64,000 nucleotides of DNA, from NCBI GenBank assembly GCA_022842465.1, contig JALHPN010000011.1, positions 16,051 to 80,050 of the forward strand. The letters are read 5' to 3'. The notes below the pieces were generated by a model. That model did no database searches. It was given only the letters and a program-made list of their open reading frames with translations, and was not told where the DNA came from. This document shows positions 16,808 through 34,721 of the stretch, one piece after another. Each line of letters opens with the position of its first letter. Within the stretch, counting starts at the first letter, position 1. Made by a program: the position numbers and the translations under genes. This DNA comes from Polyangiaceae bacterium (GTDB lineage: Bacteria; Myxococcota_A; Polyangia; Polyangiales; Polyangiaceae).

Positions 16808-18210
16808 TCGGAGCGATCGTCGGCGGCGGCTACAGGCTCGAGCGCCTCCTCGGCGCGGGGGGCATGGGGACCGTCTACGAGGCGACCCACCTCGAGCTCG
16901 GGCGGCGGGTCGCGGTCAAGGTCCTGAACGACGCGACGCCGCGTGCCGTCGCGCGTCTCCGCCAGGAGGCGTCGGCGGCCGCGCGTCTCGGCAGCCCGCA
17001 CATCGCGCTCGTCCACGAGCTCGTCGCCCGCGACGACGAGCCGCCGGTGCTCGTCATGGAGCTCCTCGCGGGGGAGTCGCTCGCGGCCCGGCTCGAGCGC
17101 GAGACGCGTCTCGAGCTCGGGCGCGCGGCGAGGATCGCGTCGCAGGTGCTCGCCGCGCTCGACGTCGCGCACCGCGCCGGCATCGTCCACCGCGACGTGA
17201 AGCCTTCGAACGTCTGGCTCGTGGACGATGCGCGCGCCGACGGCGATGCGCACGTGAAGCTCCTCGACTTCGGCATCGCCACGCTCCCGGACGAGGAGGG
17301 GATCCACACGACGACGGGCGTCCTCCTCGGGACGCCGGGTTACCTCGCGCCGGAGCAGCTCCGTGGCCTCCCGGCAGACGCGCGCAGCGATCTGCACGCG
17401 GTCGGTCTCCTCCTCTACGTGATGGTGACCGGGAGCTTGCCGTGGGCGTCCGCCCCGCGATCGGTGCACCTGGAGACCCTCGAGCGCGTCCCCGCCCCGC
17501 TCCACGAGCTCGTGCCCGGCGTGCCGCCGTCGTTGTCGGTCGTCGTCGCGTGCGCCCTCGCGAAGGACCCCGCGAGCCGCTTCGCGACCGCCGCCGAGAT
17601 GGCGGACGCCTTGGCGCGTGCCGTCGCCGTCGCGACTGCGGCGGCGCCGCCGCCGCGACGGAAGAGGGAGACGACGGCGATCGTGGCGGCGTCGGCGACG
17701 CTCGCAGCCGTCGTGGCCTTCGGCGTGACGGTCGCGAAGGTCGTCGCACCCGTCCCCGACGTCGCTCCGCCCCGCCCAGCGCCCCCGGCTCCGCCCTTCG
17801 TCGAGGAAGAGCCTCTCCCGGTCACCGCCCCCCCGCCACCTTCGGCGATCGCGAGCGCCACGCCCAAATCGTGTCACTGCGAGGGCCCGCACGGCGCCCT
17901 CCTCTGCGTCCGCGAGCAGCCGATTCGATGCGCATGCGTCGGAGCGCGAGGGGAGCTCTGTCCGACTCGGCCCGATGCTTCGGGTCGCTGTCCGGCCGGG
18001 CGTCTCGACATGGCCTTCGTCTTCCACGGGACGGAGGGCTGCAGCGGCTTCGGGCTCGGGGACGCGGGCGGCAAGGAGGAGGGGGCCCTCGAGTCGTGCA
18101 ACTACTGCTACGCGACCGAGCAGCTGACGGGGCGCGCCGGAGACGCCTGCGAGGGCCGTGATCGCGCAGGCGGGCGGGTGCGTCGCGGCTTCCTCGTCTG
18201 CGCGAAGTGA
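16804..18210 (+). CDS. Hanks-type Ser/Thr kinase - TM - 12-Cys extracytoplasmic domain; start codon uncertain (CTG 16804?)
   Basis: Open frame reads [55 protein letters not shown], then TM and Cys-rich tail; track start 16864 would cut the Gly-loop. Confidence 0.9.
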
Positions 18211-18215
18211 GCGCG

Positions 18216-32900: not shown

Positions 32901-33265
32901 TCAACGACTACGATCGTCGCATCATCGCCATCGGCTACGTCATCCTCGCGCTCTTCTTCGCGAGCGCGGTGTCGATGTGCGCCGATCACGTCGTCCGCCA
33001 GAAGGTGGTCGATGCGCTCTCGTGGCGACCGCTCGTCGCCTGCGGGAAGGTCAGCTACGGCATGTACATCTTCCACTGGCCGCTCGTCGTCTGGCTCGTC
33101 CCGCGCGTCGCGCAGATGAACAAGGAGATGGGGACGGCCTCGCAGATCGGCCTCGGGCTCGCCGTGGTCGTGCTCGGGACCGCGCTCATGTACGTGGCGG
33201 CGGCGATCAGCTTCCGCTTCTTCGAGACGCCGTTCCTCAAGCTGAAGGGCAAGTTCCACGACTGA
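29996..33265 (+). CDS. Fusion: GT-C-fold membrane glycosyltransferase-like region + acyltransferase 3 (OafA-like)
   Basis: N-term [37 protein letters not shown]; C-term [40 protein letters not shown]. Start GTG 29996 or ATG 30002. Confidence 0.85.
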   Translation: [1089 protein letters not shown]

Positions 33266-34721
33266 CGTCCCGGCGCCGCACGCTCTCCCCCCGCGCTTTC
33301 GCGTCCTCGGAGAGCTCGGGCGAGGCGCGATGGGCGTCGTCCTCGACGTCGAGGACACGACGCTCGGCCGCCCCGTCGCGGTGAAGGTGCTCGCCCCGGA
33401 AGCCTCCGGGAGCATCGACCGCGAGCGCCTGCTGCGCGAGGCGCGCGCAGCTGCCGGTCTCCGCAGTCCGCACTCGGTTCGAGTCTACGAGGCGGATGTC
33501 GGCGCCGACGGAAGCGTCTACGTCGTGATGGAACGGCTCGAGGGCGAGACGCTCGCCGCGCGTCTCGAGCGACGCGGGACCCTCGCCGTGACGGAGACCC
33601 TCGTGATCGCCACGGCGCTGCTCGACACCCTCGGCGAGGCCCACGGGCGAGGCCTCGTCCACCGCGACGTGAAGCCGGGCAACGTCTTCCTCGCGAAGAC
33701 GCCGGCGGGGGAGGTGCCGAAGCTCCTCGACTTCGGGCTCGTCCGCGCGGCAGACACGCCCTCGCTCACTGCGACGGGGGAAGGGCTCGGAACGCCCGCG
33801 TACATGGCGCCGGAGCAGATCCGGGCGGCGCGAGACGTCGACGCGCGCGCGGACGTGTGGTCCGTCGGCGTGACGCTCTACGAGGCCCTCACGGGAGAGC
33901 TGCCGTTCGACGCGGGCACGCTGCCCGGGATCTTGACGAAGATCCTCACCCAGGAACCGGCGCCTATCGCAGCGCTCCGGCCGGACGTCCCTGCCGGGGT
34001 GGCGGACGCGATCATGCGTTGCCTCGCGAAGGATCCTGCCGCGCGACCCGCGGATGCGCGCGCGCTCGCCGAGACCCTGAGCGCGACGCTCCCAGCGAAG
34101 TCACGGACGCGCCTGGCTTCTGCCGCGAGGGAGCCGCCGAAGTGGCGTCCCTTCGCCCTCGGCCTCTGCGCGACGCTCGTGGCTTTCGGAACGATCGGAG
34201 GACTGCTCGTCGCCGAGCTCGTCGATTCGGCCGCTCCAGCCCGTCGTCGGCCTGCCAATCTCATCGTGACGGAGTCACTCGAGCTAGCCGGCTCGTCCGC
34301 CTCGAAGGCCGAGGCCACGCCGCTCTCCGGCCGCGGCGACGCCATCACCGCGCGGCGCATCCGCCTCGCGGGCGCCAACGGGTCGCACGCCTGCCTCTGC
34401 GTCCAGTCGCGAGGCTCGGTGCGAATTCGGCTCTGTCCGATGAGGTCCGCGCCGAGCTGCGGTTGCGCAACCAGCCGTCAGTGGCTTTGCGCTCGACCCG
34501 GCGAGCCATGCGACGGCACGCCGGCCGAAGGGGGGGCCGCGCACGTGGGACGCCCCTGCGGAGGGTACGCTGGGCAGCAGTGGTCGGAGGGCACCTTTCA
34601 CTGCGACTACTGCACCGGCGATGCCATGACGGTCTTCGTCGGCGCCGAAGACGGCGCTGCGTGCAAGGGGATCGACAACAACAACCGCCTGCTGGAGGGC
34701 AGATGGATCTGCACGAAGTAG
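33246..34721 (+). CDS. Hanks-type Ser/Thr kinase - TM - 12-Cys extracytoplasmic domain; start codon unresolved
   Basis: Coordinates are the stop-to-stop open frame. ..PPRFRVLGELGRGAMGVVLDVEDTTLGRPVAVKVL, HRDVKPGN, LLDFGLV; TM; Cys-rich tail. Only ATG (33330) lies inside the Gly-loop. Confidence 0.88.
   Translation, partial: RASSTTDVPAPHALPPRFRVLGELGRGAMGVVLDVEDTTLGRPVAVKVLAPEASGSIDRERLLREARAAAGLRSPHSVRVYEADVGADGSVYVVMERLEGETLAARLERRGTLAVTETLVIATALLDTLGEAHGRGLVHRDVKPGNVFLAKTPAGEVPKLLDFGLVRAADTPSLTATGEGLGTPAYMAPEQIRAARDVDARADVWSVGVTLYEALTGELPFDAGTLPGILTKILTQEPAPIAALRPDVPAGVADAIMRCLAKDPAARPADARALAETLSATLPAKSRTRLASAAREPPKWRPFALGLCATLVAFGTIGGLLVAELVDSAAPARRRPANLIVTESLELAGSSASKAEATPLSGRGDAITARRIRLAGANGSHACLCVQSRGSVRIRLCPMRSAPSCGCATSRQWLCARPGEPCDGTPAEGGAAHVGRPCGGYAGQQWSEGTFHCDYCTGDAMTVFVGAEDGAACKGIDNNNRLLEGRWICTK

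Follow-up and report, generated by a model that had tools for sequence, protein, structure and literature searches.

The locus

The window, by which we mean the whole stretch of 64,000 nucleotides that was analysed, holds two genes built to one plan: a Hanks-type kinase domain, a transmembrane (TM) helix, a linker and a tail with twelve cysteines. Kinase 1 (P0001; 16804..18210, plus strand) has its catalytic domain at 16831..17586 (residues 10-261; Pfam PF00069, E 6.2e-42), its helix at 17677..17733 (hydropathy 2.22) and its tail at 17869..18207. Kinase 2 (P0002; 33246..34721, plus strand, given as an open frame from stop to stop) has the same parts at 33300..34067 (residues 19-274; PF00069, E 7.2e-43), 34155..34211 (the helix ALGLCATLVAFGTIGGLLV, hydropathy 2.08) and 34386..34718. 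With Pkinase scores of 144.2 and 147.3 bits against a Pfam cut-off of 31.7, and with VAVK, HRD and DFG motifs intact in both, these are Hanks-type (Pkinase) Ser/Thr kinases. By hydropathy scan, a single hydrophobic helix lies between kinase and tail in each, which gives the layout of a single-pass receptor, and in kinase 1 the basic residues fall towards the kinase side (four R/K upstream, one downstream). Linkers rich in P, A, S and T follow the helix (45 residues in kinase 1, 59 in kinase 2), and the tails, of 113 and 111 residues, form the C-terminal ends of the proteins. The translations thereby confirm what the first-pass annotation had said of both kinases, that they end in a helix, a linker and a matching tail.

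How either gene starts is less plain. Neither frame offers an ATG, GTG or TTG 5' of the glycine loop (16804-16866; 33246-33332). In kinase 1, the upstream gene's stop codon, TGA, overlaps a CTG at 16804 (CTGA), with AAGGTG about 8 bases before it; in kinase 2, the sole in-frame NTG ahead of the catalytic core is the ATG at 33330, within the glycine loop, and a CTGA stands in another frame at 33262. The genes may start at non-standard codons, or else the assembly contains an indel.

Between the two lies a third kinase (29145-29999, plus strand), which has neither the TM tail nor the cysteine domain. It sits directly upstream of a large frame for a glycosyltransferase/acyltransferase-like membrane protein (29996-33265), which in turn abuts kinase 2.

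Homology of the two tails

Are the tails truly related, or are they simply two stretches rich in cysteine? All twelve canonical cysteines are present in both, at residues 2, 4, 13, 21, 23, 31, 41, 58, 77, 80, 94 and 111 of the first (counted from nucleotide 17869) and at residues 3, 5, 17, 25, 27, 35, 42, 58, 73, 76, 93 and 109 of the second (from 34386). The spacing formula proposed for them at first pass is exact in both window tails, but its fixed spacings are not general across the family, and the second tail, rightly recognised, has its first cysteine at 34392 and not at 34391.

Compared directly, the two tails give a BLASTP match that is marginal (26% identity, E 0.013) and that, taken alone, would leave some room for likeness by chance; we therefore tested homology through a profile of their relatives, built from the other 21 tails with both window tails excluded. 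This leave-out profile gave tail 1 a score of 53.3 bits and tail 2 a score of 55.3 bits, whereas the best of 2,000 cysteine-preserving shuffles of each reached 23.2 and 19.3, and the best full shuffles 8.2 and 10.4. Because the profile scores so far exceed the shuffle scores, the common ancestry of the tails is secure; with nine copies of the tail in this one genome as well, the odds of a chance resemblance are negligible.

Distribution among genomes

A profile search placed the nine copies on contigs C11 (twice), C19, C24, C58, C145, C149, C206 and C214, in a genome with at least 153 Hanks kinases, so that some 6% of these bear the tail. Four congeners (G076, G077, G079 and G080) have one or two copies each, a genome of another genus (G037) has eight, and two metagenome-assembled genomes of the same class but another family (G490 and G495) have one each. 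Two sampled searches of the phylum, one across 284 genomes and one across 379, in which a first-look filter scored part of the candidates, turned up no further convincing copy; the weak matches L038-L040, L053-L057, L072, L073 and L147 were read and judged to be frame noise. Every member with enough sequence keeps the order kinase, TM helix, linker, tail, with the tail at the very C terminus; members with no visible kinase run off the end of a contig. Where a helix can be identified, the linker is 45-113 residues long and rich in P, A, S and T.

Two members of G037 deserve separate mention. On contig C33 (L082), two tailed kinases stand in tandem and form a pair with 100/100 support in the kinase tree. 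On contig C756 (L013), the frame continues past the tail and, as the contig ends, enters a new C-x-C motif (LCECRSGSGL), possibly a second copy of the domain.

Cysteine pairing

Canonical cysteines are missing in just 4 of the 23 aligned tails, and at those columns they go two at a time. C6 and C7 are lost in G37_C756 and again in G37_C543, where C10 has also shifted by one residue (C-x2-C to C-x3-C); C4 and C9 are lost in G79_C18, and C1 and C12 in G77. Gains can be paired, too: G490 and G495 have acquired two extra cysteines together. Such paired losses, each of which except that of C6 and C7 comes from one lineage, indirectly show C1-C12, C4-C9 and C6-C7 behaving as pairs. We infer that the full set is concentric, Ci with C(13-i), three of the six pairs coming from paired loss and the others (C2-C11, C3-C10 and C5-C8) following, presumably, from the symmetry of the modules described below. 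The losses fit structural disulfides and make a dedicated redox switch, or zinc sites, less likely.

A module within a copy of itself

The symmetry was suggested by the consensus, in which the stretch from C4 to C9 repeats the pattern obtained by joining C1-C3 to C10-C12 (C-x-C..LC..C..GxxCxG[YFD]..Gx[LW]xC). Aligned by hhalign, the stitched outer half and the inner half score 39.5 (probability 96%, E 5e-9), against 9.2 +/- 1.7 and a maximum of 16.75 in 200 column shuffles with the cysteines fixed. A score so far above the shuffle maximum means that the inner six-cysteine module lies inside a copy of itself, and that the outer module (C1-C3 with C10-C12) is, by profile comparison, homologous to the inner (C4-C9). 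A simple tandem duplication, C1-C6 against C7-C12, scored just 5.4 and was rejected. In kinase 1, the outer module occupies 17872-17907 and 18106-18201 and the inner 17929-18099; in kinase 2, the corresponding spans are 34392-34436 and 34611-34712, and 34458-34604. The pairs C1-C12 and C4-C9, lost in different sequences, are one and the same pair of the module, first cysteine with last, in its two copies, which makes the pairing internally consistent.

The sole relative seen on a protein other than a kinase, L145, comes from another family of the order (genome G270). It has no kinase domain, and carries in tandem one clear and one partial six-cysteine module, both resembling the inner half, along with an N-terminal signal-like segment (so that it is predicted to be secreted) and a ZU5-like domain just below the Pfam cut-off. 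Modules that occur in this one protein apart from any kinase weakly suggest that the six-cysteine module may be the unit of evolution.

Comparison with catalogued domains and folds

Pfam gives no family, PASTA repeats included, in either window tail up to E 10, in keeping with the first-pass remark that PASTA or another common PknB sensor was not recognised there. Across the 20 tails scanned, Pfam and NCBIfam gave matches at chance level only, with DUF26 (Stress-antifung) not among the Pfam matches of any tail; a sequence search of the PDB with the tails was likewise at chance level, and the half-module found nothing there better than E 0.15.

AlphaFold models made from 20 aligned tails are confident and all-beta, with pLDDT of 86.5 and 85.0 and pTM of 0.67 and 0.62 for tails 1 and 2. 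They match one another, and the order of the predicted strands is shared by the two halves as well as by the two models. Foldseek, run against the PDB with both models and also against the BFVD viral models, returned nothing below E 2.9; as the comparison spans these two collections, "new fold" is meant here relative to them alone. A literature search, with most subscription papers outside its reach, found no description of the domain. The twelve-cysteine tail is, on its sequences, a real and uncatalogued domain: the layout of helix and linker and the absence of family matches uphold the suggestion of an undescribed, disulfide-rich extracytoplasmic domain on Hanks kinases, for which "sensor" would be a functional reading of the same layout.

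Evolution of the tailed kinases

The tree of kinase domains (17 tailed and 40 untailed kinases, a sample of part of the kinome, with a poorly supported backbone) needs five changes of the tailed/untailed label and rejects the tailed kinases as one clade (AU p 0.0055). As a single clade is rejected, the domain would have moved between kinase lineages, and, within the limits of a partial sample and a weak backbone, it looks to have been exchanged as a sensory cassette. Tails also evolve faster than kinases, as the C19 and C214 pair shows: its tails are 68% identical, yet its kinase branches are very short (0.087 and 0.091).

The neighbouring activator

Convergent with kinase 1, its stop codon 5 bases from that of the kinase, lies a gene for an activator with FHA, sigma54 AAA+ and Fis-type HTH domains (18216..19520, minus strand; Pfam FHA 1.1e-13, Sigma54_activat 1.3e-65, HTH_8). 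The tailed kinases of C19 and C214 likewise converge on FHA-sigma54 activators, the gaps at the three loci ranging from a few bases to some tens. Among 98 sigma54-activator matches in this genome, the activator of the window has these two as its best paralogs, which indicates that kinase and activator were duplicated as a unit and kept together. Such a neighbour accompanies just three of the nine tailed kinases, and about 20 of the 98 activators have a listed kinase domain within some 2 kb. We have accordingly toned down any coupling specific to tailed kinases, kinase-activator neighbours being common in this genome. Its signalling set is very large overall, and many of the kinases and sigma54-activator matches adjoin.

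Discussion

What might such a tail do? That a homologous family is fused C-terminally to kinase, helix and linker is established by the sequences; export, ligand binding, control of the kinase and the output step are our reading of them. We propose, with a probability of roughly 0.6, that disulfides lock the tail into a compact, periplasmic ligand-binding domain controlling a single-pass receptor kinase, whose output at kinase 1 would be the FHA-sigma54 activator. A ligand would bind the variable loops of the tail, which differ between paralogs; binding would alter how the kinase dimerises, or its geometry across the membrane, so turning on its trans-autophosphorylation; and beside kinase 1 the convergent activator, the likely output, would read the phosphorylated protein through its FHA domain and change transcription.

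The same anatomy, which counts to that extent against a receptor, would be expected of a domain that anchors, tethering the kinase to the cell wall, the outer membrane or a neighbouring cell and so localising it without switching it. The long P/A/S/T-rich linker would suit a tether, as would the presence of six-cysteine modules on L145, a distant and apparently secreted protein with its ZU5-like domain. We nonetheless think anchoring unlikely, for the tail is present as a single copy ending catalytically intact kinases, and the strong loop diversity of close paralogs suits recognition better than it suits a common anchor.

So many cysteines, with C-x-C and C-x2-C motifs among them, also bring to mind a sensor of redox state or oxidative stress, in which reversible reduction of one or more pairs on the outer side of the membrane switches the kinase. 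We consider this improbable: whole canonical pairs can vanish while the rest are kept, no single pair stands out as a switch, the nested, buried pairs look structural, and the neighbouring cysteines of C9-x2-C10 are assigned to different partners. A zinc-binding domain on the cytoplasmic side, hinted at by isolated and very weak zinc-finger matches in single tails (best E 0.04), is highly improbable given a predicted TM helix between tail and kinase and cysteines lost as sequence-distant pairs rather than in groups of four.

One can go a step further and imagine a new fold, a six-cysteine beta module inserted in its own copy, with six disulfides arranged concentrically to lock it. It would have arisen in Myxococcota as an ectodomain exchangeable between Ser/Thr receptor kinases and have given these bacteria a diversified family analogous to the cysteine-rich receptor kinases of plants. 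We would give this larger picture even odds. The Ser/Thr kinase sets of myxobacteria rank among the largest known, and the signals that most of these kinases sense are unknown. Here there is a concrete ectodomain, uncatalogued so far, whose disulfide topology can be tested, along with paralogs with differing recognition loops and a candidate output; domain swaps could probe kinase input in this lineage, and the nested self-insertion, with no PDB fold to match it, makes the domain a worthwhile target for structure determination.

Comparison with known systems

The PASTA receptor kinases (PknB/PrkC/Stk1) join a cytoplasmic Hanks kinase, through one TM helix, to a C-terminal outside domain that binds extracellular ligand (PMC6213207). 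The order of domains is the same in the twelve-cysteine kinases, but linear PASTA repeats there are replaced here by a disulfide-rich, all-beta domain. PknD of M. tuberculosis places an all-beta extracytoplasmic sensor, a beta-propeller, beyond kinase and helix (PMC6213207), and it differs in turn, its six-bladed propeller being a repeat and the tail a small nested domain unmatched by any PDB fold. FHA-sigma54 enhancer-binding proteins are a class known from M. xanthus (Jelsbak et al. 2005, as cited in PMC4320627). The window activator shares the architecture of these myxobacterial proteins and is an ordinary member, the one novelty being its conserved convergent pairing with three twelve-cysteine kinases. 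The hybrid (tandem) Tudor domain of KDM4 consists of two interdigitated beta lobes, and it recurs among the weak Foldseek matches (E above 3, TM-score about 0.25); intracellular and free of disulfides, it is at most a topological echo of the tail and gives no ground for homology. In plants, the cysteine-rich receptor kinases carry a disulfide-rich ectodomain (DUF26/Gnk2) on a receptor kinase family that has expanded and diversified in one lineage. Although cysteine pattern and domain order differ, and there is no sign of homology, the plant ectodomain and the twelve-cysteine tail would work alike.
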